From NCBI RefSeq assembly GCF_000504245.1, contig NZ_KI632509.1, positions 991,723-1,055,722 of the forward strand: 64,000 nucleotides of DNA, given 5' to 3'. The notes beneath the pieces are model-generated. The model was not told where the DNA came from. It worked only from the letters and a program-made list of their open reading frames with translations, and searched no databases. This DNA comes from Haloechinothrix halophila YIM 93223 (GTDB lineage Bacteria; Actinomycetota; Actinomycetes; Mycobacteriales; Pseudonocardiaceae). This document shows, piece after piece, positions 17,860-43,315 of this stretch. The translations under genes and the position numbers were made by a program. Each line of letters begins with the position of its first letter. The stretch's first letter is position 1.

Positions 17860-18243
17860 CTAGAAGCTGTCGCGGTAGCGGTCCAGCGCTTCCCTGAGCA
17901 GGTCGTCATCCCGGCTCGTGGCCGGTAGCAGGACTTCCTGGACGACGTCGATCACTTCAGCGACGTGCCGGTTGAGCTGCCGTTCTAGCCGCAGCTCGGT
18001 TTCCAGGCTTGCGACTCGGTCTTGGAGTTGGCGGATCTGGCGTTCGGCCGCCGCATGTCGGCGGCGTTCCAGTTTCTCGACCCGATGGCGCAGTGCCATT
18101 GTGCGTTTGGTGGCGGTGGCCGCGCGTTGCTGCGCCTGTCGCACCTCTGCGCGCAGGCGCGGGACATCGGAGATCGACGCCATCACAGTAGGGGCAAGCT
18201 GTTCGGCGAGGCGGCGGGCGCCAGCTCGGAGCTGCCTTTTCAC
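17860..18243 (-). CDS. Coiled-coil protein coupled to the LicD-methyltransferase gene
   Basis: A 127-residue protein. A basic N-terminus is followed by a long heptad region (residues about 40-95: LRAEVRQAQQRAA, RHRVEKLERRR, IRQLQDRVASLETEL) and a short conserved-looking tail, LNRHVAEVIDVVQEVLLPA. The tail resembles the small C-terminal domain called DUF6752, found with surface-polysaccharide enzymes, although I cannot confirm this. I chose the GTG at 18243 because it overlaps the upstream stop (GTGA) with GGTGGAG just ahead; a longer frame from 18270 also exists. Translation coupling suggests it works with the upstream enzyme, perhaps as an oligomerisation or localisation partner. Confidence 0.75.
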   Translation of the reverse strand: MKRQLRAGARRLAEQLAPTVMASISDVPRLRAEVRQAQQRAATATKRTMALRHRVEKLERRRHAAAERQIRQLQDRVASLETELRLERQLNRHVAEVIDVVQEVLLPATSRDDDLLREALDRYRDSF

Positions 18244-19820
18244 TGGCTCCACCTCACGGCGAGTCGGCACACGTGCGGGTCCTCGTCTTTGTATACGGCC
18301 AAGCCGTGATTTTCCTCCCGGTATTCGATGTGTCCGCCACGGGCCTCGATCTCGTTGACCACAGCGTCCGGGTCAAGGAAACGGCGGAAATGCTCGCCGA
18401 AAGCGTGTTCCGTTTTGGCGTCCGCGCCGGTGCGGAACTCGAGATAAAGAAGTCCGCCCGCTCGCAGCGCCATTTGGGCGAGTCGCCAAACGTGCTGGCG
18501 GCCGTCATCTTCCAGAGCGTGCAGCAGAAAGCGCCCGTAGAGTGTTTTCGGTGTCGCGTCCTGCGCCAGGCGGGCTCCCATTGCCAGGACCTGCCGTAGC
18601 TCATAGAGATTGAAAACCTCGAACTCCGCCGACACGTCTGTGGCATTCGCGGTGTCGCGAGCGTGTTCCACAGCGGAGTGCGCGTATTCGAGCCCGTGGA
18701 CCTGGTATCCCAGGCCAGCGAACCACAGCGCGTCTCGACCGGTGCCGAAGCCGATTTCTACGAGCGGGCGCGACGTCGACTCGCGTTCGTGCACCCATTG
18801 CGCGAAGGCGGACGGTTCGTCTGGGACGGCCGCGCTCTTCTGTCCGCTGTAGAAGGACTCCCAGTATTGATGTTGTTTTCGCAAACCGCGTACCCATCCT
18901 GTGAGGCGTTGACGCGTCGACCGAGGCGGCCGGAATGTGAATGACGGGTCCGGCACTCGCCAGTTCTCGCCGTACGTTGCTTCGAGAAGAGCTTCCTTGT
19001 CGGCTGGTGCTGGCAGTTGCCGACCGTGCAGGGTCACTTCGCCCAGGGGGAGGATCGCCGAGCGGGGCAACGGGGCCTTAACGGCAGGAAGCAGATGGAA
19101 GTCGTCGTCGACGATGAAGCCAGCGAAGACATCGATGCCGCGAGTGTCGCCGTCCGCGTCGGTAATCAATGTTTTGAAGCTTGCCGCGGAGAGCGGGCTG
19201 ATTGTGTGACCGTGTCGGCGGAGCACTCGGCGCAGGTGGAACGATTCCCGGGCGACGTCGAGCGGATGCGTATAGTCGCTGAGATACGCGAGATCAGCAT
19301 CGCTGTCGTGCCCGATGAGTTCGCCTTCTCGAACCGCGCCGAGCAGTGCGCCGAACGCGATGAACGCGTGGATGCCGCACTCCTCGCGGAGATCCCTGAG
19401 TAGTGTCTCGACGCCGTCAAGGAGGGAATCGACCATCGCCGTGCTGCCAGTGTCAAAAGCACGCTGCAGATGACCGTTCTTGTCCAGCGACAGCGGCTGA
19501 CCGGCCGCGTCAACGATGCGGACTTCCCCGTCACCGGTGCCGAACCAGTGGTCCTGGTCCGCCAGCACACGCTTACTGATGTGCTCGCGAATGGTGACTT
19601 GCGCTTTCCCGTCGAGATAGGGCCGCAGGGCGTGCGGCCACGGGATGCGGCGCGAGGTGCCTTGAGCGGCTGCTCGCCGAGAAGGTGGCGAAATAGACCA
19701 CACCCACTGCCCGCCGATACAGACATCCACAACCGCGTCCCAGTCGCTCGGTAGGCGCAGTGCGTCGTCATCAATGAAGGGAGCCTCAGCGGAGGTTCCC
19801 CCCGTCAGGGGCTCCGTCAT
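18240..19820 (-). CDS. LicD-type nucleotidyltransferase domain fused to a SAM-dependent methyltransferase
   Basis: A protein of about 526 residues with two catalytic parts. The middle section, GALLGAVREGELIGHDSDADLAY, carries the LicD-family nucleotidyltransferase pattern G-x-LLGA-R-x-G-x-I-x-x-D-x-D-x-D; this fold transfers phosphocholine or phosphosugar-like groups to surface glycans. The C-terminal section is a class I methyltransferase with motif I VEIGFGTGRDALWFA. The start is taken at 19820 (MTEPLTGG); upstream residues to 19919 look non-coding. The downstream coiled-coil gene overlaps the stop. A role in decorating a cell-surface polysaccharide or teichoic-type polymer is inferred from LicD; no glycosyltransferase is nearby. 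Confidence 0.82.
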   Translation of the reverse strand: MTEPLTGGTSAEAPFIDDDALRLPSDWDAVVDVCIGGQWVWSISPPSRRAAAQGTSRRIPWPHALRPYLDGKAQVTIREHISKRVLADQDHWFGTGDGEVRIVDAAGQPLSLDKNGHLQRAFDTGSTAMVDSLLDGVETLLRDLREECGIHAFIAFGALLGAVREGELIGHDSDADLAYLSDYTHPLDVARESFHLRRVLRRHGHTISPLSAASFKTLITDADGDTRGIDVFAGFIVDDDFHLLPAVKAPLPRSAILPLGEVTLHGRQLPAPADKEALLEATYGENWRVPDPSFTFRPPRSTRQRLTGWVRGLRKQHQYWESFYSGQKSAAVPDEPSAFAQWVHERESTSRPLVEIGFGTGRDALWFAGLGYQVHGLEYAHSAVEHARDTANATDVSAEFEVFNLYELRQVLAMGARLAQDATPKTLYGRFLLHALEDDGRQHVWRLAQMALRAGGLLYLEFRTGADAKTEHAFGEHFRRFLDPDAVVNEIEARGGHIEYREENHGLAVYKDEDPHVCRLAVRWSQ

Positions 19821-19977: not shown

Positions 19978-19990
19978 CCAGTTCAGTGAG

Positions 19991-20076
19991 CGGAGGATAC
20001 GGGATTCGAACCCGTGAGGGCTATTAACCCAACACGATTTCCAATCGTGCGCCTTAGGCCGCTCGGCCAATCCTCC
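19991..20076 (-). tRNA. tRNA-Ser(GGA)
   Basis: Acceptor strands GGAGGAT / ATCCTCC pair, with G as discriminator. The anticodon stem CACGA/TCGTG closes TTGGAAA, giving anticodon GGA. A long class II variable arm (TTGGGTTAATAGCCCTC) and the T-loop GGGTTCGAATCCC are present. CCA is not encoded. Confidence 0.97.
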
Positions 20077-22402: not shown

Positions 22403-23770
22403 GTGAGCACTGCGCTGCGGCCCGACGTCGAAGGGACTTCGGAACGGCGAGCGGACAAGCGGGGCGGGCGCTGGTCGCGGCCTGCCGAGATGGTGGCGAG
22501 ATCCTGGGCCACGACGCCAGGACGTCTCTCGATCATCGCGGGCGGGCTCGTCGTGCTGATCCTGCTGACGGGTGCCGTCGCCGCCGCGACCACGATGTCC
22601 AAGTCGGATACCACGACGGACCTTGTCGAGATCCACGAGCCGACCGCCGCCGACGTGCAACGGCTGTACCGGGTGCTGTCCGACGCAGACGCGGCCGCGG
22701 CGAGTTCGCTGCTCGTCGCCGGTGACGAACCCATCGAGATGCGGGAACGCTACGAGGACGACATCGCCCTCGCCGGTCCGACGCTAGGCCTCGCCGCGCT
22801 CGACCGCTCCGGTGACCCGAGAGTGACTGAGCAGATCGAGATCGTCGGACGGCAAGTGCCCACCTACGCGGGCCTCGTCGAGACGGCGCGGGCGAACGGT
22901 CGTCAAGAGCTGCCCATCGGTGGCGCCTACCTGCGGGAAGCGTCTCATCTGATGCGCACCGAGATCTTGCCCGCCGCGGAACGGCTGTACCGAATCCAGG
23001 TGGAGCGGGTGGCCGACGAGCGGGATTCGGCCGTCAGCTTCCCGTACACCGCGACAGCGCTCGCCGTGATCTTGTTCGTCGCGCTCCTGATGGCACAGGT
23101 CCAGATCAGACGACTATCGAAACGACGACTCAACATCGGCCTCATCGTCGCGACGGGGGCGATCGGGCTCGCCGTCGCCTGGAGCGCGGTCGCCATGACC
23201 GCGCACTCCGACCTCGTCAACGAGGGTCACGAGCACGGCTCTGCGCAGGTGAACCTGCTCGCCGACACCAGGATCACGGCACTGCAGGCGCGCGCGGACG
23301 AGCTGCTCACCCTGGTCGCGCGGGGCAGTGGCGGCGCATACGAGGAGGAGTTCGTCAAGCTGTCGCGCACCATCACTGGTGAGGTCGGCGATGGTGGGAC
23401 GCTGCGGGAGGCGCGCGGCATGACCGAGGACGCCGAACTATCGGCCCACCTCGACAAGGCCATCGGCGCGGCCGAGCGGTGGTTGACCACCCACGGCGAG
23501 ATCCGCGAGGCCGACGACGGCGGCCAGTACGAGGAGGCCGTCGAGCTCGCCGTCGACCGCAGGCGGGTCGGATCGAGCGCGCAGGAGTTCGCCGCGCTCG
23601 ACGACAGCCTCAGTGCCGCGATCGCCAGCGCGCGGCAGCACTTCGTCGACGAGACGGTCGGCGGCGGGCGGGCGTTGACCCTGCTCACGACGGGATGGGT
23701 ACTGCTCGCGCTGGTCGCGGTGGCGGGAGTCGTCGGCGGCATACGGCAACGACTGCGGGAGTATCGATGA
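22403..23770 (+). CDS. glnX: GlnX-type membrane signalling protein
   Basis: A 455-residue membrane protein. An N-terminal transmembrane helix (IIAGGLVVLILLTGAVAAATT) is followed by an extracellular helical region of about 150 residues, two central membrane helices (ALAVILFVALLMAQV and IGLIVATGAIGLAVAWSAVAM), a second extracellular helical region and a C-terminal helix. The order glnX-glnH-pknG matches M. tuberculosis Rv0412c-Rv0411c-Rv0410c, where GlnX is thought to pass the amino-acid signal from the lipoprotein GlnH to the kinase PknG. I chose the GTG at 22403 (AAGGA upstream); a GTG at 22379 would add eight residues. The stop overlaps glnH. Confidence 0.88.
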   Translation: MSTALRPDVEGTSERRADKRGGRWSRPAEMVARSWATTPGRLSIIAGGLVVLILLTGAVAAATTMSKSDTTTDLVEIHEPTAADVQRLYRVLSDADAAAASSLLVAGDEPIEMRERYEDDIALAGPTLGLAALDRSGDPRVTEQIEIVGRQVPTYAGLVETARANGRQELPIGGAYLREASHLMRTEILPAAERLYRIQVERVADERDSAVSFPYTATALAVILFVALLMAQVQIRRLSKRRLNIGLIVATGAIGLAVAWSAVAMTAHSDLVNEGHEHGSAQVNLLADTRITALQARADELLTLVARGSGGAYEEEFVKLSRTITGEVGDGGTLREARGMTEDAELSAHLDKAIGAAERWLTTHGEIREADDGGQYEEAVELAVDRRRVGSSAQEFAALDDSLSAAIASARQHFVDETVGGGRALTLLTTGWVLLALVAVAGVVGGIRQRLREYR

Positions 23771-24726
23771 AGCGTTGCGTCCGGATCGTGCTCGCGACAC
23801 TGCTTGTCGGGTTCGTCGCGTCGTGTGACGCCGCGGGTGAGCCGCGTTCGCTGGTGCCCGTCGTGCCGGCGGAGCGTCCCATGCCAGCCGGTGTCGACCT
23901 GTCCCCTGAAGCCCCGGAGGGCGGATCCGGCGAGGACTGCGGCGACCCGACCGCGAGCCTCGCGCCGAAGGGGCTCGCTACCCCGGCAGGGTCCACTATG
24001 GCTGAGATCAAGGAGCGCGGACGGCTCATCGCTGGTGTCGACCAGAACACCTACCTGTTCGGTTTCCGCGACCCGTCGACCGGCGAGCTCGAAGGATTCG
24101 ACATCGACATCGCCCGCGAGGTGGCCGAAGCGCTGTTCGGCGACCCGAACAAGGTGCAGTTCAAGACCGTGAGCGTGCAGGACCGGATCACCGCACTGGA
24201 GGACGGCTCGGTCGACATCATGGCCTATGCCATGACCATCACCTGTGAGCGGAGCGAGCAGGTCGAATTCTCCAGTGTGTATTTCGAGGCCGGTCAACGG
24301 GTGTTGGTACGGAAGGGTTCCGGCTATTCCAGTTTGTCCGACCTTGGCGGTAAGAAGGTATGTGCACCAAAGGAGTCGACGTCGCTGGCGAACCTGGTGT
24401 CGGCCGACCCCAAGCCAGTGCCGGTCGCGGTCAACGATCTGGCCGACTGCCTGCTGCTGTTGCAGCAACGGCAGGTCGAAGCTGTCTCGACGGATGACAC
24501 CGTGCTGGCCGGTATGGCGAGCCAGGACCCGTCGATCGAGGTGGTCGGCGAGACGTTCAGTAGCGAGCCCTACGGCATCGGAATCCCCAAGGACAACAAG
24601 GACATGGTGCGTTATGTCAACGCTGTGCTCGAAAAGGTGCGGGCCGAATCGTGGCAGGACATCTACGGCCGCTGGTTCGAGCCCGTCCTTGGCTCTGCCA
24701 CCCCACCGTCTCCGACGTACCGGTAA
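23767..24726 (+). CDS. glnH: Solute-binding lipoprotein GlnH (Asp/Glu sensor of PknG)
   Basis: A 319-residue lipoprotein. The signal peptide ends in the lipobox VASC (cysteine near residue 20), followed by a Pro-rich linker and a family 3 periplasmic binding domain (LIAGVDQNTYLFGFRDPSTGELEGFDIDIAREVAEALFG, then VDIMAYAMTITCERSEQVEFSS). Its ATG at 23767 overlaps the glnX stop (ATGA). In mycobacteria GlnH binds aspartate and glutamate and signals to PknG rather than feeding an ABC transporter; no permease gene is nearby here, which supports that role. Two cysteines in the mature domain may form a disulfide. Confidence 0.92.
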   Translation: MKRCVRIVLATLLVGFVASCDAAGEPRSLVPVVPAERPMPAGVDLSPEAPEGGSGEDCGDPTASLAPKGLATPAGSTMAEIKERGRLIAGVDQNTYLFGFRDPSTGELEGFDIDIAREVAEALFGDPNKVQFKTVSVQDRITALEDGSVDIMAYAMTITCERSEQVEFSSVYFEAGQRVLVRKGSGYSSLSDLGGKKVCAPKESTSLANLVSADPKPVPVAVNDLADCLLLLQQRQVEAVSTDDTVLAGMASQDPSIEVVGETFSSEPYGIGIPKDNKDMVRYVNAVLEKVRAESWQDIYGRWFEPVLGSATPPSPTYR

Positions 24727-24747
24727 CGCGATGCTGGAGTGGTACTC

Positions 24748-26976
24748 ATGACGCGCTGCCCGCGTGCCGGGTGTGCCGGAACGGTCGACGAGGACGGCTT
24801 TTGCGACGTCTGCGGGCTCGAGGCGGTCCCAGCCGAGGCCGGATCCGAACCGCAGAGCAAGCCCTCGACGCGCACCGGCGCGTCGAGCAGCAGCGGTGCG
24901 AAGTCCTGGACGGCCGCATCGTCGTCGTCGAACCCGGTGTCGTCGCGGTCCGGCTCGTCCGGCAGGGGCATGCTCGGCGTCGGGTTGATCGAAGTCCCTC
25001 CGGTGCCCTATCGCGATCCGAGCGACGTCGTGCTGGACAACCCCGTGGTGCCGGAGCGGCAGCGGTTCTGCGGTCGGTGTGGCGCTGAGGTCGGTAGATC
25101 GCGCGGCGAACGACCGGCTCGCCCCTCGGGGTTCTGCCCGAAGTGCGGGCAGCGGTACTCGTTCACGCCCGCGCTCAGTCCGGGGCAGGTCGTCAACGAC
25201 CAGTACGAGGTGCTCGGCTGCCTCGCCCACGGCGGGCTCGGCTGGATCTACCTCGCCCGTGACCAGGCGGTATCCGGGCGATGGGTGGTGCTCAAGGGCG
25301 TCATCGACGGCGCGGACGCCGACGCGACGGCCGCCGCGATCGCGGAGCGGCATTTCCTCGCAAAGGTCGAGCACCCGAACATCGTCAAGATCCACAACTT
25401 CGTGCAGCACGGCGACGAAGAGACCAGCGTCGGCTACATCGTCATGGAGTACGTCGGCGGGCAGTCGCTGAAGGAGCTGCTCAAACAGCGGCGCATCGAT
25501 CGTGGCCCAACCGAGTGCCTTCCGGTGGAGCAGGCCATCGCCTATGCGATCGAGGTGCTGCGCCCGCTTGGCTACCTGCACGCCAATGGGCTGCTGTACT
25601 GCGACGTCAAACCGGACAACGTGATCCAGACGCAGGAGCAGCTCAAGCTGATCGACCTTGGCGCCGTCCGGCACACTGACGACGATACCGGCGCGGTTTT
25701 CGGCACCGAGGGTTACCAGGCGCCCGAGGTGTCCGAGGAGGGCCCGTCGCCAGCGTCCGATTTGTATGCGGTTGGCCGGATGCTCGCCGTGTTGTCGATC
25801 CCGTTCGACTTCCGCTCCGCCTACGTCGACCGGCTGCCGTCGCAGGCGGAGGCACCGCTGCTCGCCGAGCACGAGTCGCTGTGGCGGCTGCTGGCGCGGG
25901 CGTGCCACCGCGATCCGCGACGTCGGTTCGACTCCGCCGTCGAGATGGCCGAGCAGCTGACCTGCGTGCTGCGCGAGGTGCTTGCCGCCGCCGACGGGCA
26001 GCCGAGGCCCGCGTCGTCGACGAACTTCGGCCCCGAGCTGGAGAGTTTCGGCACGCAGTCGCACGACAGCGAGGTCGTCGCCACGGTGGATGGCCTCACG
26101 GTCGCCCGCGCGTTGCCCGTGCCGAGGGTGGATGGATCGGACCCGGCCGCCGGCCTGCTGACCGCGCTCGGTTCGGCCAGCCCCGCCGACCTGCTCGACG
26201 AGGTCAAGGACACGTCGCCGACGGTCGAGGTGCGGCTGCGCCGTGTCCGCGCGCATATCGAACTGGGCGACATCGCCGCCGCGTGGTCCGAGGCGGAGGA
26301 GACGTCCGGCGACGCATGGCGGGCGCACTGGGCGAGGGGACTCGCCGCACTGGCAGCTGACAAACCGGTCGACGCGGGGCGGGCGTTCGACGCCGTGGTC
26401 GACCTGCTGCCCGGCGAGCTGGTCGCGAAGCTCGCGCTCGCCGCTGCCGCCGAGCTGAGTGGCGACCTCGCGGACGCCGCGCGCTACTACGGTGTCGCGT
26501 GGCGCACCGACCGATCGCTGGTCAGCGCGGCGTTCGGTCTGGCGCGGGTGCTGCTCGCGGACGGCGCACGGACCGAGGCGGTCGCGGTGCTCGGGTCGGT
26601 GCCGACAACGTCGGCGCACTACGTCGCCGCGCACGAAGCGGCGATACGCGCGGTCGCGAACACGCCGAACCCGGTGTCGCTGACCTCGACGGAGCTGGTC
26701 GCTGCTGGCCAGCGCCTCGGCGAGATAGAGATCGGCGAGGCGCGCAGGGCCAGGCTGGAGGCCGAACTGCTGGAGACCGCGCTGGAACGGGCGTTCGCGG
26801 ATGGACCGGACGCACCGGACGGCTCGCGAATGCTCGGCTGCCGGCTCGAAGAGGACGAACTACGGCTCGGTCTCGAACAGCGTTACCGCACGCTGGCGCG
26901 GCACTCCGCGAGTGTGCTCGAGCGTTACTCCTACGTGGACCGTGCCAACCAAGTGCGTCCGTGGACGTGGGTGTGA
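24748..26976 (+). CDS. pknG: Serine/threonine protein kinase PknG
   Basis: A 742-residue soluble kinase with an N-terminal zinc ribbon (CPRAGC, CDVC), a serine-rich linker, a rubredoxin-like pair (CGRCG near residue 110 and CPKCG near residue 130), the kinase domain (GGLGWIYLARD, VVLKG with the catalytic lysine, YCDVKPDNV, DLGAV) and a C-terminal TPR region. M. tuberculosis PknG (about 750 residues) has the same rubredoxin-kinase-TPR order and phosphorylates the FHA protein GarA to control 2-oxoglutarate metabolism. The catalytic loop is CDVKPDN, as in PknG, not HRD. The ATG at 24748 has GGAG eight bases upstream. A PP2C phosphatase gene follows after one base. Confidence 0.95.
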   Translation: MTRCPRAGCAGTVDEDGFCDVCGLEAVPAEAGSEPQSKPSTRTGASSSSGAKSWTAASSSSNPVSSRSGSSGRGMLGVGLIEVPPVPYRDPSDVVLDNPVVPERQRFCGRCGAEVGRSRGERPARPSGFCPKCGQRYSFTPALSPGQVVNDQYEVLGCLAHGGLGWIYLARDQAVSGRWVVLKGVIDGADADATAAAIAERHFLAKVEHPNIVKIHNFVQHGDEETSVGYIVMEYVGGQSLKELLKQRRIDRGPTECLPVEQAIAYAIEVLRPLGYLHANGLLYCDVKPDNVIQTQEQLKLIDLGAVRHTDDDTGAVFGTEGYQAPEVSEEGPSPASDLYAVGRMLAVLSIPFDFRSAYVDRLPSQAEAPLLAEHESLWRLLARACHRDPRRRFDSAVEMAEQLTCVLREVLAAADGQPRPASSTNFGPELESFGTQSHDSEVVATVDGLTVARALPVPRVDGSDPAAGLLTALGSASPADLLDEVKDTSPTVEVRLRRVRAHIELGDIAAAWSEAEETSGDAWRAHWARGLAALAADKPVDAGRAFDAVVDLLPGELVAKLALAAAAELSGDLADAARYYGVAWRTDRSLVSAAFGLARVLLADGARTEAVAVLGSVPTTSAHYVAAHEAAIRAVANTPNPVSLTSTELVAAGQRLGEIEIGEARRARLEAELLETALERAFADGPDAPDGSRMLGCRLEEDELRLGLEQRYRTLARHSASVLERYSYVDRANQVRPWTWV

Positions 26977-36908: not shown

Positions 36909-37850
36909 CTACTGCCCGGGCGAGCCGGTTCGCGCCATGCGTTCCCGCTGCGGGACGACGGTGTACTTCGGGTCGCGGGCGGAGGCCACACCAGCGGCGT
37001 AGACGCCGAAGCGGGTGCATACGCCCGCCGCGAGGTAGGCCGCGCCCGCGGCGGCGGCGGCGACTCTGCTGCGCTTGCTCAGCAACGACAGCCCCGCACC
37101 GAGGGCTGTCAGCGCCTTGCCAGCCTTGAGTAGCGTGCCAGCGCGCCCGCCGCGGTAGGTCTCCGAGACGACGCCGAGGTTGTGCTCCAGCCGGTGTCCC
37201 GCCGCCAGCTCGGCGGCGGCGCCCGCGAGACCGAGACGCCGCGCTGGCGCGGTCTCCGTTGCCGGAACCAGCAGCAGAGCGGCCCCCGCGCCACTGGTGG
37301 CCGCGCTGCCAGCGAACAGCACGGGCAGGTCACCACGTCCCTCATGCCAGGCGGGCGTCGCGGTGTCCGCGAGCAGCACCGCCGTGTAGGTGCACATCGC
37401 TGGCCCGAGCAGCCCGGCCGCGCCACCGGCGAGCGTGCCGATCGGTCGCAGCCGGCCGGTCAGCATCGAGGCAGCCGACGCCGTCGCGAGCCCGGAGAAC
37501 GGTGCCAGGATCCACGAGCCGACCGACAGCGGCGACGTCGGCTTGAACACCCGCAGCATGTACAGGAACCGCTCCGGCCTGCCGAGGTCGTGGATCAGCG
37601 CCGCCACACTCGCCAGTGACCCACCTGCCGCGACCAGCGTGCCCACGCGCGCCAGCTTCGGCAGGCCGGACACTCGCGCCATCGTGGCCATCGACGCCGA
37701 CGCGCCCGCCGTGCCGCCGAGGAACAGGTATAGCGGCACGTCTGGTTGCTCCCACGCCGGTTCCTTGACGATCGGCCTGCCGTAGTAGGAGCGGAACTCC
37801 GCGGGCTCCACCATGGCCCGCTCACGCCGGGACGGCTGCGCGCGGCTCAT
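36909..37850 (-). CDS. Formate dehydrogenase membrane anchor, NrfD/PsrC type
   Basis: A 313-residue membrane protein. After the conserved lead FRSYYGRPIVKEPAWEQPDVPLYLFLGG, about eight hydrophobic helices follow (for example IGTLAGGAAGLLGPAMCTYTAVLLA). This is the NrfD/PsrC fold, which moves electrons from the iron-sulfur subunit to the quinone pool without heme. It is the third gene of the cluster; its ATG at 37850 overlaps the stop of the iron-sulfur gene (ATGA). Use of NrfD rather than a cytochrome b subunit is common for actinobacterial formate dehydrogenases. The frame extends upstream to 37922 but without a better start. Confidence 0.88.
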   Translation of the reverse strand: MSRAQPSRRERAMVEPAEFRSYYGRPIVKEPAWEQPDVPLYLFLGGTAGASASMATMARVSGLPKLARVGTLVAAGGSLASVAALIHDLGRPERFLYMLRVFKPTSPLSVGSWILAPFSGLATASAASMLTGRLRPIGTLAGGAAGLLGPAMCTYTAVLLADTATPAWHEGRGDLPVLFAGSAATSGAGAALLLVPATETAPARRLGLAGAAAELAAGHRLEHNLGVVSETYRGGRAGTLLKAGKALTALGAGLSLLSKRSRVAAAAAGAAYLAAGVCTRFGVYAAGVASARDPKYTVVPQRERMARTGSPGQ

Positions 37851-38719
37851 CGCCGTGCCCCAGCGAACGACGCGACCACAGCCGCCGCGACACCCAGCGC
37901 CGCAGCGCCTGCCCGCCGCCACATCGCGGGCAGGTCCCGCGTGGTGACCACCGGGTCGGGCGGCAGGCCATACACCTCGGGCTCGTCCAGCAGCAGGAAG
38001 AACGCGCCGGTGCCGCCGACGCCGTCGTCCGGGTCGTCGCCGTACAGCCGCGCCTCGGTGACGCCGTCGGCGTGCAGCGCCTGCTTACGCTCCACCGCGC
38101 GCTGCCGCAGCTCGGACACCTCGCCGTACTGGATGGAGTCCGTCGGGCACGCCTTCGCGCACGCGGGTTCGAGCCCGTCACCGATGCGGTCGTAGCACAG
38201 CGTGCACTTGAACGCCCTGCCGTCGTCCTCCCGCTTCTCGATCACGCCGTACGGGCAGGCTGGCACGCAGTAGCCACAGCCGTTGCAGATGTCGGGCTGC
38301 ACCACGACGGTGTCGAACTCGGTGCGGAACAGCGCGCCGGTCGGGCAGACGTCGAGGCAGGCGGCGTGGGTGCAGTGCTTGCAGACGTCCGATGACATCA
38401 GCCACCGAACCCCGGTGTCGTCTTCCTGCTCCGGCGCACCGATCGTCGGCATCCCCAGGTTATCCACATCCGACTTGTTCACACGCGATGCGGGAACCTG
38501 CTGCTCGATGAACGCGACGTGCCGCCAGTTGTTCGCGCCGAGATCGCCGGTGTTGTCATAGGACAGTCCGAGTAAGTCCATTCCGGACGGATCATCTGGC
38601 GCGGGGACGGCGTTCCACTCCTTGCAGGCGACCTCGCACGCCTTGCAGCCGATACACACCGATGTGTCGGTGAAGAACCCCATGCGGGGCTGTGCGTCGG
38701 CGTACCCGGACTCGCTCAC
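37847..38719 (-). CDS. Formate dehydrogenase iron-sulfur subunit
   Basis: A 290-residue protein with four ferredoxin-type cysteine clusters: CIGCKACEVACKEWN (near residue 22), CKHCTHAACLDVCP, CNGCGYCVPACPYG, and CTLCYDR with CAKACP, together able to bind four 4Fe-4S clusters. A hydrophobic C-terminal segment (AALGVAAAVVASFAG) probably lies in the membrane and contacts the NrfD anchor. It carries electrons from the catalytic subunit to the quinone-reducing anchor. Its ATG overlaps the catalytic-subunit stop, and its stop overlaps the anchor start. Confidence 0.94.
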   Translation of the reverse strand: MSESGYADAQPRMGFFTDTSVCIGCKACEVACKEWNAVPAPDDPSGMDLLGLSYDNTGDLGANNWRHVAFIEQQVPASRVNKSDVDNLGMPTIGAPEQEDDTGVRWLMSSDVCKHCTHAACLDVCPTGALFRTEFDTVVVQPDICNGCGYCVPACPYGVIEKREDDGRAFKCTLCYDRIGDGLEPACAKACPTDSIQYGEVSELRQRAVERKQALHADGVTEARLYGDDPDDGVGGTGAFFLLLDEPEVYGLPPDPVVTTRDLPAMWRRAGAAALGVAAAVVASFAGARR

Positions 38720-41700
38720 GCCTCACTCCCTTCGACTCCCGCACGTCGCTGGTACTCCCGCACCAGCTCCGGCAATGCCGCGCCGCGTGGCCGCCTGCCT
38801 GGCCGGATGTCGCACGTCGCGGCCTTGGCCTCCTGGATGTGCACGTTCGGGTCGAGCACGACGGAAAGCAGGTCGTTCGCCGAGTCGCCGGTGGACAGTC
38901 CATTGGATCCCCAGTGATACGGCAGACCGACCTGGTGGATCGTTCTTCCCCGCACCCGCAGCGGCTTGATTCGCTCGGTGACGAGCACTCTCGCCTCGAT
39001 CGCGGTGCGCGCGGAGATGATCGTCGCCCAGCCGCCGTGCTCAAGACCGGTTTCCTCGGCGAGCTGCGGGGAGACCTCGCAGAAGAACTCCGGTTGCAGC
39101 TCGGAGAGATACGGCAGGCCCCGGCTCATGCCGCCCGCTGTGTGGTGCTCGGTGAGCCGGTAGGTGGTGAACACGTACGGATAGATCTCGTTCGCCACCG
39201 GGTTGTACCGGTTGTGCTCGCCGCCGAACGTCTGTCGTGCCGGGTTCGCCTGCTGGGTATAGAGCGGATTGTCTACTGGGGATTCGTGCGGCTCATAGTG
39301 TGTCGGGAGTGGACCGTCAGTCAGCCCCGCTGGTGCGAACAGCCATGCCTTGCCGTCGGCCTGCATGATGAATGGGTCCGAACCGGACAGTGCATCCTGT
39401 GCCCGCGCGCCCGCTGGCGGGGTGTAGTCCGGTGGCTTGGTTGCCTCGAAGTCCGGCACGTCGGGGCTGATCCACGTGCCCTTCTCGGCGTCCCACCAGA
39501 CGTAGCGTTTGCGCTCGCTCCACGGGTTGCCGTCCGGATCGGCCGAGGCCCGGTTGTAGAGGATCCGCCGGTTGGACGGCCATGCCCACGCCCAGCGCGA
39601 CGCTACCCAGTCCTGTTTGGCGCCGGGAACGCGGTCGGCCGCGTGGTTGTGGCCGTCGGCGTAGACGCCGCAGTAGATCCAGCAGCCACACGACGTCGAG
39701 CCGTCATCGGCCAGCGCGGTGAAGGTGGCCAACGGGCCGTCAGGGCCGGACCCGTTGATCTCGGCGAGCACCGATTCCGCGTCCGGCTCATCGGTCGGCC
39801 CATGCGTGGGGTACGACCAGGTCAGCTCCCGCAGCGGCACGTCGCGCGGGTCGGTGGAGTCGCGCAGCTTGTCCCGGATGAGACGGCCGAGGTGGTAGTA
39901 GAACCACAGCTCGCTGCGGGCGTCCCCGGGTGGCTCTACGGCCTTGTGGTGCCACTGCAACAGCCGCTGCGTGTTGGTGAAGCTGCCGTCCTTCTCCACG
40001 TGCGACGCCGCTGGCAGGAAGAAGACCTCGGTGCCGATCTCCTCGCTCGCCAGCTCCCCGGTGGCGATCTCGGGCCCGTCCTGCCAGAACGTCGCGCTCT
40101 CGATCAGCTGCATGTCGCGGACGACGAGCCAGTCCAGATTGGCCATGCCGAGACGCTGCAGCTTGCCATTGGCCGAGCCGACCGCGGGATTCTCCCCGGC
40201 GAGAAAGTAGCCCTTACACTTTCCTGACAGTTGGTTGTAGACGGTCTGATATGTACCGTGATCGCCGGTCAGCCGGGGCAGGTGATCGAACCGGAAGTCA
40301 TTCTCGGCGGTGGCGTGCTCGCCCCACCACGCCTTGAGCAAACTGACCACATAAGACCGCATATTGCCCCAGAACCCGGTCTTGCCCGCATCGAGCCCGA
40401 CGAACATGTCAAGGTCGAGGTGCTGGTGGGCGTGCGGCATCGGGATGTAGCCCGGCAGGATGTTGAATAGCGTCGGGATGTCGGTGGAGCCTTGAATGCT
40501 GGCGTGCCCGCGCAGTGCGAGGATGCCGCCGCCCGGCCTGCCGATGTTGCCGAGCAGCAGCTGCAGGATTGACGCCGCCCTGATGTACTGCACGCCGACC
40601 GTGTGGTGCGTCCAGCCGACCGAGTACACCCACGCCGTCGTTCTGCGCCGCCCGGAGTTCGCCGTGATGGCCTCGGCGACGTCGAGGAACTGCTCTGGCG
40701 ACACCCCGCAGATGTCGGCGACGACCTCGGGCGTGTAGCGCGCGTAGTGCCGCTTGAGCACCTGGAACACGCAGCGGGGATGTTCCAGCGTCTCGTCGGA
40801 ACCGCCCTCGTACGCCCAGCTCTCGACGTCGTACTCGCCTGTCTCCGGGTTGAAGCCGGAGAAGAGTCCGTCCAGGTCTTCTGTGTCGGCGAAGTCCTCC
40901 CGCAGAATCGCACCCGCGTTGGTGTAGGCGACGACGTAGTCGCGGAACTCCTTGCCGTTGCTCAGCACGTAATTGATCAACCCGCCGAGGAACGCGATGT
41001 CACTTCCGGCTCGCAGCCCGACGTGCTCATGTGCCAGCGCGCTCGTTCTGGTGAAGCGAGGATCGACGTGGATGATCTTCGCGCCCCGGTTCTTCGCCTC
41101 CATCACCCATTGGAAACCGACCGGATGGCACTCGGCCATGTTCGACCCCTGGATGACGATGCAGTCCGCGTTGGCGAGGTCTTGCTGGAACGTCGTAGCG
41201 CCGCCACGACCGAAGGAGGTCCCCAGACCGGGAACCGTGGCGGAGTGTCAAATGCGGGCCTGATTCTCGATCTGTACCGCGCCGAGCGACGTGTACAGCT
41301 TCTTCATCAGGTAGTTCTCTTCGTTGTCCAGCGTCGCGCCGCCGAGGCTGGCGATGCCCTCGGTGCGATTGAGCCGGACGCCGTTCTCGTCGGTGTCCTC
41401 CCAGGTCTCCCGCCGGGTCTTGATCACACGATCAGCGATCATGTCCATCGCCGTATCGAGTGGCAACGACTCCCACTCGGTCCCGTATGGCCGCCGATAC
41501 AGTACGCGGTCGACGCGGTTCGGGCTGGTGACGAGTTGCTTGCTCGCGGAGCCCTTCGGGCACAGCCTGCCGCGCGAGATCGGCGAATCCGGGTCACCCT
41601 CGATCTGGCTGACCGCGCCGTCTTTGACGTATACCCGCTGGCCACAGCCGACCGCGCAGTACGGGCAGACCGACTGGACGACACTGTCGGCGTCTTCGGT

Positions 41701-41817
41701 GCGAGCGCGCAGTCGCTTGGAGCGATCAGACTGGGCCGCAGCGCCGAGACCGAGGCGATCAGCCCCGGTCAGCTGCCGGTAGACCGGCCAGCCTTCGACC
41801 CACTGCCGAATACCCAC
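38716..41817 (-). CDS. Formate dehydrogenase catalytic subunit, selenocysteine-containing
   Basis: A protein of about 1033 residues when the in-frame TGA at 41250-41248 is read as selenocysteine (residue 190). Before it lies an N-terminal part with CPYCAVGCG and LCPKGS, the 4Fe-4S ligands, ending in NQARI; after it HSATVPGLGTSFGRGG continues without a gap. The sequence NQAR-x-Sec-HSATV is exactly that of FdnG/FdhA enzymes. The following sections bind bis-MGD molybdenum or tungsten cofactor. Automated ORF finding breaks the gene into two pieces at 41248. No twin-arginine signal is seen, so the enzyme is probably cytoplasmic-facing. The GTG start at 41817 has GGAGG upstream. Confidence 0.95.
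41201..41250 (-). promoter_or_regulatory. Bacterial SECIS element in formate dehydrogenase mRNA
   Basis: Immediately after the UGA (41250-41248), the RNA folds into an 8-bp lower stem CCGCCACG / CGUGGCGG, an upper stem GUUCCC / GGGGAC (one U-G pair) and an apical loop GGUCU. A ten-base bulge on the 3' side separates the stems. The GGUCU loop is the SelB-binding element known from E. coli fdhF and fdnG. It is read while coding for protein. Confidence 0.9.
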
Positions 41818-41903
41818 GCCGCCCTCCCGGACTTGGCTGCGGTTTCCCTTCTACCGTAAGGGGATCGGGAGCGACACGCACACTGTTCACACCGCGGTGG
41901 CGA

Positions 41904-43202
41904 TCACTCGCATCGGCGCACAGCCTCCAGCAGCCTGTCGTCGGCCTCGACGTCGATGGTGCGCAGGTCGAGCAGGCACCGTCCGCGCTCCACCCTGCCC
42001 ACCACCGGCGGCTCGCCCGCCCGCAACGCCGCCGCGTAGGACTCCGGGAGGCTCACCGCGGCGCTGGGCAGTGTCACGCCGGGCGCACCCCCACCGCCGA
42101 CCATCGCCTCGGACTCAACCGCCTGCGCGTCGACGTCGTACTCGCGCAGCCGCGCGGCCAACTCTTCGGCGCGCGCGGTGAGCGCGGTGGGGTCGGCGTT
42201 CAGGGCCCTGGTGACCGGCGGCTCCGGTCCGCGCAGCGTGGCCTCCAGCGCGGCGAGGGTGAGCTTGTCCACGCGCAGCGCACGGGCGGACGGGTGTCTG
42301 CGTAGTCGCGTAACCAGCGCGTCGTCGCCGAGGAGCAGTCCGGCCTGCGGGCCGCCGAGCAACTTGTCGCCGCTCGCGGTGACTAGGTTCGCGCCGTCGC
42401 GCAGCGCGCTCGTGGCATCCGGTTCGTCCGGCAGCGTGGGGTGCGGCGTGAGCAGTCCTGAGCCGATGTCGACGACCAGCGGCACGCCGAGCCCGGTCAA
42501 TTCGCGCACCGACGGCGTCTCGGTGAACCCGGCGACCAGGTAGTTCGACGGGTGCACCTTGAGCACGAACCCGGTGTCGGCGTTGATGGCGTCGGCGTAG
42601 TCGCGCGCCGTGGTGCGGTTGGTGGTGCCGACCTCGCGCAGCCGCGCGCCGGTCGATGCGAGCAGGTCGGGGATACGGAAGCCGTCGCCGATCTCGATCA
42701 GCTCGCCCCTGCTGATGACGATCTCGTTGCCTTGCGCGAGCGCCAGCGCGCAGAGCAGCAGTGCGGCGGCGTTGTTATTGACGACGTGCACCGCCGTGGC
42801 GTCCGGCACCGCGTTGCCGAGTGCGGCCAGCGCACCGCGTCCCCTGCGCGCGCGGCTGCCGGTGGCCAGGTCGAACTCGACGTCCGTTGTGCCGCTGGCG
42901 GCGTGGATGGCGTCCAGTGCGGCGGCCGACAGCGGTGCCCGGCCGAGGTTGGTGTGGACGAGCACGCCGGTCGCGTTGAGCACCGGATGGCACTGGCTCG
43001 CGGTGGGTGGCAGTGCGTCGAACGCCGCGTCCGCGACGTTATCCGGGCTGATTTCACCCGCGCGGGCACGTTGCTGCGCCGTGGTGATCGCGGCCTTGAC
43101 GACGTCACGACCGAGCGAGTCCTGTGCCTTCGCGAGGCGCGGCATGGCCAGCAGCGTGTCGGTCCCTGGAATGTGGCGGCGTGGGTCGGCGTGCTCGGTC
43201 AT
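41904..43202 (-). CDS. selA: L-seryl-tRNA(Sec) selenium transferase
   Basis: A 432-residue PLP enzyme that converts seryl-tRNA(Sec) to selenocysteyl-tRNA(Sec) using selenophosphate. Seen are VLNATGVLVHTNLGRAPLS near residue 70, RGELIEIGDGFRIPDLL, GTTNRTTARDY, VVDIGSGLL, and the PLP-binding lysine in SGDKLLGGPQAGLLLG near residue 285; all are SelA hallmarks. The ATG at 43202 has GGAG seven bases upstream, and lies only 18 bases after the tRNA-Sec 3' end, so both are probably on one transcript. The formate dehydrogenase gene follows 86 bases downstream. selB and selD are not in the window. Confidence 0.96.
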   Translation of the reverse strand: MTEHADPRRHIPGTDTLLAMPRLAKAQDSLGRDVVKAAITTAQQRARAGEISPDNVADAAFDALPPTASQCHPVLNATGVLVHTNLGRAPLSAAALDAIHAASGTTDVEFDLATGSRARRGRGALAALGNAVPDATAVHVVNNNAAALLLCALALAQGNEIVISRGELIEIGDGFRIPDLLASTGARLREVGTTNRTTARDYADAINADTGFVLKVHPSNYLVAGFTETPSVRELTGLGVPLVVDIGSGLLTPHPTLPDEPDATSALRDGANLVTASGDKLLGGPQAGLLLGDDALVTRLRRHPSARALRVDKLTLAALEATLRGPEPPVTRALNADPTALTARAEELAARLREYDVDAQAVESEAMVGGGGAPGVTLPSAAVSLPESYAAALRAGEPPVVGRVERGRCLLDLRTIDVEADDRLLEAVRRCE

Positions 43203-43220
43203 CGCGAGACTCCATGGGCA

Positions 43221-43315
43221 TGGCGGAGGCGGACGGGAATCGAACCCGCCAATGACAGGACCTGCCATTCAACGGTTTTGAAGACCGCGCCAGCCACCAG
43301 GCTAGATACGCCTCC
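43221..43315 (-). tRNA. selC: tRNA-Sec(UCA)
   Basis: A 95-nt tRNA including an encoded CCA. Acceptor strands GGAGGCGT / CCGCCTCC give an extended stem (seven pairs plus a possible mismatched eighth). The D-stem is six pairs (CTAGCC/GGCTGG) with a four-base loop, as in bacterial tRNA-Sec. The anticodon stem GCGGT/ACCGT closes CTTCAAA, giving anticodon UCA, complementary to UGA. A long variable arm (AATGGCAG...CTGTCATT) is present. These features identify the selenocysteine tRNA rather than a suppressor or tRNA-Ser. Confidence 0.97.

Follow-up and report, generated by a model that had tools for sequence, protein, structure and literature searches.

LicD- and FKRP-type transferases have been described in both bacteria and humans. 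LicD is the phosphocholine transferase of teichoic acid or LPS, and fukutin and FKRP, the latter a human muscular-dystrophy protein, are CDP-ribitol-dependent ribitol-phosphate transferases. According to the consulted excerpt of one study, FKRP activity requires Asp360, Asp362, Asp364 and Asp416, the aspartates being essential for CDP-ribitol transfer (PMC6965139). LicD-like transferases were also noted near genes for the nucleotidyl activation of phosphonates, as stated in the consulted part of PMC6697681. A different combination of activities is found in WbdD, which, according to the consulted excerpts of two papers, terminates chains with a phosphate followed by a methyl group and has a coiled coil that serves as a ruler (PMC3482155; PMC11231755). 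While LicD and FKRP transferases are thus known, a search of the open-licence literature by title and abstract start retrieved no paper on a LicD-methyltransferase fusion, its coiled-coil partner or a link of either to arabinogalactan, and the open-licence literature likewise returned no paper on the domain DUF6752. The wall galactan and arabinogalactan of actinomycetes, including mycobacteria, are best known for carrying few substituents.

Here we describe a gene pair from Haloechinothrix halophila YIM 93223, located in a stretch of 64,000 nucleotides that was analysed as a whole and is hereafter called the window. The features discussed below all lie on the minus strand of the window.

18240..19820 (-): LicD/FKRP-type transferase fused to a class I methyltransferase, 526 aa (ATG at 19820, TGA at 18240)
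19461..19763 (-): N-terminal beta-rich domain of the fusion, residues about 20-120, from the secondary structure of the model
18930..19460 (-): LicD/FKRP nucleotidyltransferase-fold domain, residues about 121-297, matching FKRP by structure and profile
19293..19352 (-): LicD active-site motif, residues 157-176, with D172, D174 and D176, invariant in 44 of 44 sequences and aligned with the D-x-D-x-D of FKRP
19131..19133 (-): third catalytic aspartate, D230, kept in 43 of 44 sequences and aligned with the 'hvDlw' aspartate of FKRP
18243..18890 (-): class I SAM-dependent methyltransferase domain, residues 311-526, from Pfam and structural matches
17860..18243 (-): downstream coiled-coil/DUF6752 gene, 127 aa from a GTG at 18243
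17866..18027 (-): DUF6752, Pfam PF20537 (E 5e-17; 61.8 bits against a cut-off of 27)
18240..18243 (-): 4-nt GTGA stop/start overlap, probably coupling translation of the two genes

We propose, with a probability of roughly 0.6, that the fusion is a bifunctional tailoring enzyme. It would modify a cell-envelope glycan with a phosphodiester- or phosphonate-linked group and then methylate it, while being held in place by the coiled-coil protein. This proposal draws on the domains, on active sites that are intact, on a conserved pairing of the genes, on genomic context and on purifying selection, all of which are directly supported. The presence of relatives beside cell-wall sugar genes suggests that bacteria decorate their cell-wall sugars in a way not yet described.

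An earlier note on this DNA had read the fusion as a LicD-like nucleotidyltransferase and a class I methyltransferase in one protein, and Pfam, profile and fold matches bear out this architecture. Pfam LicD (PF04991) matches residues 147-178 at 23.1 bits against a cut-off of 22.6, over 32 of 227 positions only, and a whole-genome search with the same family reported no match. This short match is not due to chance, since a 44-sequence profile found fukutin-related protein FKRP in the PDB (E 9.3e-13, profile positions 126-280) and FKRP is the top structural match of a model of residues 1-310 (Z 16.1, rmsd 2.9, 157 residues); an ordinary artefact behind the LicD match was ruled out on the same grounds. 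Residues 1-310 were modelled separately (pLDDT 90.8) because the structural listing for the whole AlphaFold2 model (mean pLDDT 88.4, pTM 0.78, from 44 homologues) was filled by methyltransferases and therefore missed FKRP. With the partial model, Foldseek placed FKRP at ranks 1-13, so that FKRP makes up 13 of the 14 rows under 0.001. The earlier note had named loss of the LicD active-site aspartates as an observation that would speak against its reading. No such loss was seen in the alignment of 44 fused proteins, in which the sole sequence departing from the pattern, at D230, is that of the relative at locus L039 (genome G030), from a phosphonate operon. The alignment also brought out a C-terminal YG-x-x-W-x-x-P-x-P region of LicD common to the fusion family and FKRP. 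By fold and residues, the fusion is a member of the LicD/FKRP group. No family assignment was reached for its first 120 residues, which are beta-rich in the predicted structure; profile matches show that, in other classes of the phylum, this N-terminal domain also precedes LicD in proteins that have no methyltransferase (L142-L146, about 430-810 aa, some with TPR-like repeats).

The methyltransferase half is recognized by Pfam Methyltransf_25 at residues 354-456 (28.4 bits against a cut-off of 27), and VIA-align superposed it on solved methyltransferases with Z up to 21.5 and rmsd 2.6-2.7 over 186-193 residues. Nearly all of the 44 aligned rows retain the glycine-rich SAM motif I and the acidic residue that follows strand 2; together with the fold, these features make the domain a Rossmann-like class I methyltransferase. 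Its C-terminal acceptor side, on the other hand, varies strongly between clades: the window protein, its near relatives, those of Geodermatophilus and some others share an EFRT...GEHFRRY...GLAVY..EDPHVCR type, and many class-level relatives have divergent C-termini. Because of these differences, a single common methylation product is unlikely. Standalone methyltransferases also occur around relatives of the fusion: an extra gene of the same family lies beside it at three loci (L090:8868-9587, L091:10442-10963, L102:3111-3803) and near it at another (L099:5812-6525), and on an Aminobacter plasmid (L127:9025-9675) a relative of the domain stands between glycosyltransferase and aminotransferase genes. 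A link of the fusion to selenoproteins was considered and rejected. The MduS model (NF045649) reached 51.2 bits against a cut-off of 380 and covered residues 315-478 only, and the fusion frame runs to its TGA stop without an earlier stop, despite the presence of a tRNA-SeC gene in the window. The latter gene lies with formate-dehydrogenase-like genes, read from the sequence, at 36909-43315; another fusion gene, in genome G001 (L038:9684-11258), also adjoins a molybdopterin-oxidoreductase-like gene.

The fusion gene ends in CAG TGA and the next frame begins GTG AAA AGG, so that the stop codon at 18242-18240 shares bases with the GTG at 18243-18241. The start of the second gene inside the stop codon of the first, reported previously, thus stands, with its exact position inferred because other starts exist (GTG 18270, ATG 18183). 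The heptad score of the encoded protein was reached by none of 1000 shuffles. We read 47 neighbourhoods from sampled genomes, 43 with a fused gene (46 fused genes) and four without (L121-L124). Genes were called by an in-house script that mis-started some genes and missed the fused genes of L092 and L096, which were recovered by profile. At a threshold of 1e-20, matches were found in 16 of 297 genomes in the family, 29 of 394 in the class and 11 of 396 in the phylum, in overlapping samples and with methyltransferase-only and LicD-only matches included. A coil gene or domain accompanies 40 of the 46 fused genes. The coil-profile match falls directly downstream on the same strand for 38 of them, upstream in the same run of genes at L107 and at the C-terminus of the fusion protein itself at L120; the coil-profile search found none for the remaining six (L039, L097, L098, L099:4059, L118 and L119). 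The profile was made from these same neighbours and therefore measures recurrence, the independent test being the count of DUF6752 genes in the window genome, which has exactly two, one at each of its two fusion genes. The pairing is thus consistent, contrary to the second outcome that the earlier note had listed as a refutation. The called fusion and coil genes overlap in 23 of 32 standalone pairs, and the coil proteins are 61-129 aa long; in three loci (L115, L116 and L125) the coil is fused to a sulfotransferase-like neighbour. Comparison by the NG86 method with the orthologues in a related genome gave dN 0.086 and dS 0.458 for the fusion, whose orthologue is 85% identical (dN/dS about 0.1-0.2), and dN 0.147 and dS 0.512 for the coil gene (dN/dS about 0.28), values from which we conclude that both genes are under purifying selection.

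In the window, none of the 10 proteins flanking the fusion (11.1-27.0 kb) has a glycosyltransferase match, and no glycan gene lies within about 7-8 kb on either side. The lack of glycosyltransferases around the pair, pointed out earlier, therefore applies to this copy, but not to a second fusion-coil pair of the same genome, which does sit among cell-wall glycan genes. This pair, with a fusion 71% identical to that of the window, lies outside the window at 395746-397323, inside the arabinogalactan locus (L037), whose NCBIfam matches, all over cut-off, include a Wzm galactan-export permease (1.2e-119), GlfT1 (2.1e-150), DprE1 (4.2e-237) and decaprenyl-phosphate phosphoribosyltransferase (7.8e-135). 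GlfT2 domains were found there by Pfam, and putative DprE2, GtrA and Glf were read from the sequence; three sulfotransferase-like genes (L037:7452-15236) surround the second copy. No PEP mutase gene was found close to either copy. Two fusion-coil pairs stand in tandem in a MAG of the same genus, labelled Actinophytocola (Pseudonocardiaceae); the tree groups the window copy, with full support, with one of these two fusions, which is the orthologue used for dN and dS above. The window gene itself has a GC3 of about 0.72, the lowest of the 54 called window genes (median 0.87), and adjoins a tRNA-Ser gene (19990-20076), a combination that hints at horizontal arrival. Elsewhere in the surroundings, 22490-26976 holds an ordinary PknG gene with genes for a solute-binding protein and a membrane protein upstream.

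Glycan genes recur around the relatives. GlfT2-type genes are present in 10 of the 47 loci, a UDP-galactopyranose-mutase-like cluster, read from the sequence, in nine, and an EmbC-like arabinosyltransferase in the Geodermatophilus locus L007. Shinella has LicD-methyltransferase proteins, or the two as adjacent genes, in the company of capsule or glycosyltransferase genes, and on a Shinella plasmid such a fusion adjoins a capsule-type glycosyltransferase. LicD and methyltransferase are separate adjacent genes at L121-L123. At 12 of the 43 loci, a gene predicted to make a CDP- or CMP-activated donor (glycerol, ribitol or phosphonate type) is found no more than three genes away from the fusion, and none is within reach in the other 31. 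Six loci (L092, L093, L097, L098, L101 and L107) have a LicC/RmlA-type nucleotidyltransferase, adjoined in all but L101 by a glycerol-1-phosphate-dehydrogenase-like gene (1e-77, below the equivalog cut-off). TagD-type cytidylyltransferases are found at L100, L103 and L109, IspD-reductase fusions at L117 and L120, and a PEP mutase-cytidylyltransferase with phosphonopyruvate decarboxylase and Fe-ADH at L039. When donor genes were placed at random inside each of the 12 loci that have one, to which the test was restricted, none of 20000 trials put all 12 within three genes of the fusion; the test assumes a single donor gene per locus that is free to take any position. These loci are spread over several separate clades of the fusion tree. 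Two further neighbours recur. A secreted-looking PLD-like (PLDc_2) protein, which could act on phosphodiester-linked groups, is encoded in 14 of 47 loci (L097, L098, L104, L105, L107, L108, L110-L116 and L125). A sulfotransferase-like protein (family c2), whose PK(S/T)GTT motif is presumably a PAPS loop, is encoded in 20 of 47. Pfam Sulfotransfer_3 matches seven of 24 members of this family (best 0.0055) and its PDB profile search found no sulfotransferase, which leaves the naming weak.

From these features we infer a reaction, a donor, an acceptor, a site of methylation and a role for the coil. The cytoplasmic LicD/FKRP-type domain would take a CDP- or CMP-activated phospho-alcohol or phosphonate and, by metal-dependent catalysis involving D172, D174, D176 and D230, would pass the group to a hydroxyl on a cell-envelope glycan that is still growing on its lipid carrier. 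Such a transfer from a CDP or CMP donor is the most likely first step, because the fold is that of FKRP, the aspartates are kept and donor-activating genes lie next door in several lineages. The methyltransferase domain would then methylate the added group or the sugar bearing it. The co-translated coiled-coil/DUF6752 protein would bind the enzyme and dock it at the glycan assembly complex, where the coil most likely serves to hold it. The acceptor of the second copy, judging from its neighbours, would most likely be the galactan or arabinogalactan that they make. The earlier note suggested that a phosphorylated and methylated group may be placed on a surface glycan by the fusion. This is supported in part, by context (the arabinogalactan locus, the GlfT2-type genes and the donor genes), by the aspartates and by the pairing. 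In the window genome itself, no dedicated donor-making gene or cytidylyltransferase was recognized. Its two CTP_transf_like matches look like NadD and CoaD, the best LicC-type match reaches 25% identity and is part of a CBS-nucleotidyltransferase protein, the eight NTP_transf_3 matches look like ordinary housekeeping or sugar enzymes, and IspD is flanked by CarD and IspF, an arrangement that is usual for the isoprenoid pathway. Further points against the proposal are the lack of glycan genes beside the window copy, the 31 loci with no donor gene in the vicinity and the loss of D230 in the phosphonate-operon relative at L039. An unrecognized enzyme of this organism could supply the donor, or the LicD domain could use another one.

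Other readings share part of this evidence. The same parts, namely a methyltransferase, a phosphate-adding domain and a coiled coil, together with the Wzm and GlfT genes around the second copy, could also make a WbdD-like chain terminator, in which a methylated phospho-group would cap the non-reducing end of galactan or another ABC-exported glycan and the coil would set the distance to the polymerase, and thereby chain length; the WbdD methyltransferase is indeed among the PDB matches of the profile (E 7.7e-5). We regard this as unlikely, considering that the fusion has no kinase domain, that the coil is short and usually a separate protein, and that most loci have no polymerase beside the pair; general docking also fits better with the coils fused to sulfotransferase-like proteins. 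The nature of the added group is at stake in an amino-alcohol route, whereby the LicD domain would transfer phosphoethanolamine or aminoethylphosphonate and the methyltransferase would N-methylate it to phosphocholine-like groups. The best NCBIfam match of the LicD domain, the phosphocholine transferase Mf1 (NF045866; 6.7e-9, 36.2 bits and thus below the cut-off of 225), is of this kind, Mf1 also uses CDP-ethanolamine according to the consulted portion of PMC11982090, and phosphoethanolamine N-methyltransferases are among the structural matches (Z 18-19). These match no better than many other methyltransferases, however, and the donor genes adjoining the relatives suggest glycerol, ribitol or hydroxyethylphosphonate instead, which makes the amino-alcohol route quite improbable.

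Farther from glycans, the fusion could be a modifying enzyme transferring a nucleotide, for instance NMP to a small molecule or protein. The structural matches that follow FKRP, MenT1 and the antibiotic nucleotidyltransferases LnuA and ANT(2'')-Ia, are enzymes compatible with this at Z 10-11, as is the failure to find a donor synthase in the window genome; but FKRP scores well above them and shares the C-terminal LicD region, and the relatives adjoin glycan and CDP-donor genes, so that we hold nucleotide transfer to be very improbable. The window copy might instead be redundant and leave the work to its 71% identical paralogue in the arabinogalactan locus, given its low GC3 and its lack of functional neighbours. 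Its open frame, intact motifs, own coil partner and dN/dS ratios, as well as the persistence of both copies in the related genome, make this the least credible of the alternatives. Glycan tailoring by phospho-alcohol or phosphonate transfer and methylation is the reading that we retain.

If correct, this reading would have several implications. A methylated phosphodiester- or phosphonate-linked substituent would alter wall charge and recognition by phages or the immune system, and a bacterial relative of FKRP would become available in a genetically accessible system. The pairing with the coil provides a first functional context for DUF6752, a domain of unknown function, and, as the donor genes are interchangeable, several cultured lineages offer a direct test of the idea. 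More speculatively, and with odds that we consider rather low, the system could be a Gram-positive counterpart of WbdD assembled from different parts, in which a LicD/FKRP transferase-methyltransferase and a separate coil would place a methylated alditol-phosphate or phosphonate on galactan or arabinogalactan as a cap or a mark. Lineages would then exchange the donor module (glycerol-1-P, glycerol-3-P, ribitol-P or hydroxyethylphosphonate) around a constant core.

Among the known systems, Mycoplasma Mf1 is the best NCBIfam match of the LicD domain, yet with 36 of 225 bits the fusion is not Mf1. With LicD systems it shares the Pfam LicD domain, over cut-off, but it differs from them by its methyltransferase, and the window is devoid of the licA/licB/licC set. 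WbdD and the Klebsiella O7 methyltransferase-kinase terminators follow the same logic of a phosphate-adding activity, a methyltransferase and a coiled coil, and Wzm/Wzt-type export is found at one copy of the fusion. The phosphate-handling domain of WbdD is nevertheless a kinase, whereas that of the fusion has a nucleotidyltransferase fold, and WbdD carries its coil in the same polypeptide, whereas the coil of the fusion is short and encoded by a separate gene, being fused only in the relative at L120. As the fusion thus lacks two hallmarks of WbdD, a kinase and a coil within one polypeptide, we do not file it there. Phosphonate-tailoring (Pnt) pathways are approached by two relatives, one lying in such an operon (L039) and the other, a LicD protein without methyltransferase (L143), having as neighbours a PEP mutase-cytidylyltransferase and an ABC-transporter ATPase, both read from the sequence. 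These two fit the LicD-like transferases near phosphonate-activation genes in the part of PMC6697681 consulted, a text in which a methyltransferase is not mentioned. Finally, the fusion differs from FKRP and fukutin in being bacterial and joined to a methyltransferase, and possibly in its N-terminal beta domain when compared with the FKRP stem. The fusion and these enzymes have in common the catalytic fold, the D-x-D-x-D motif and a third aspartate, FKRP being the best match in the PDB by profile and by structure.
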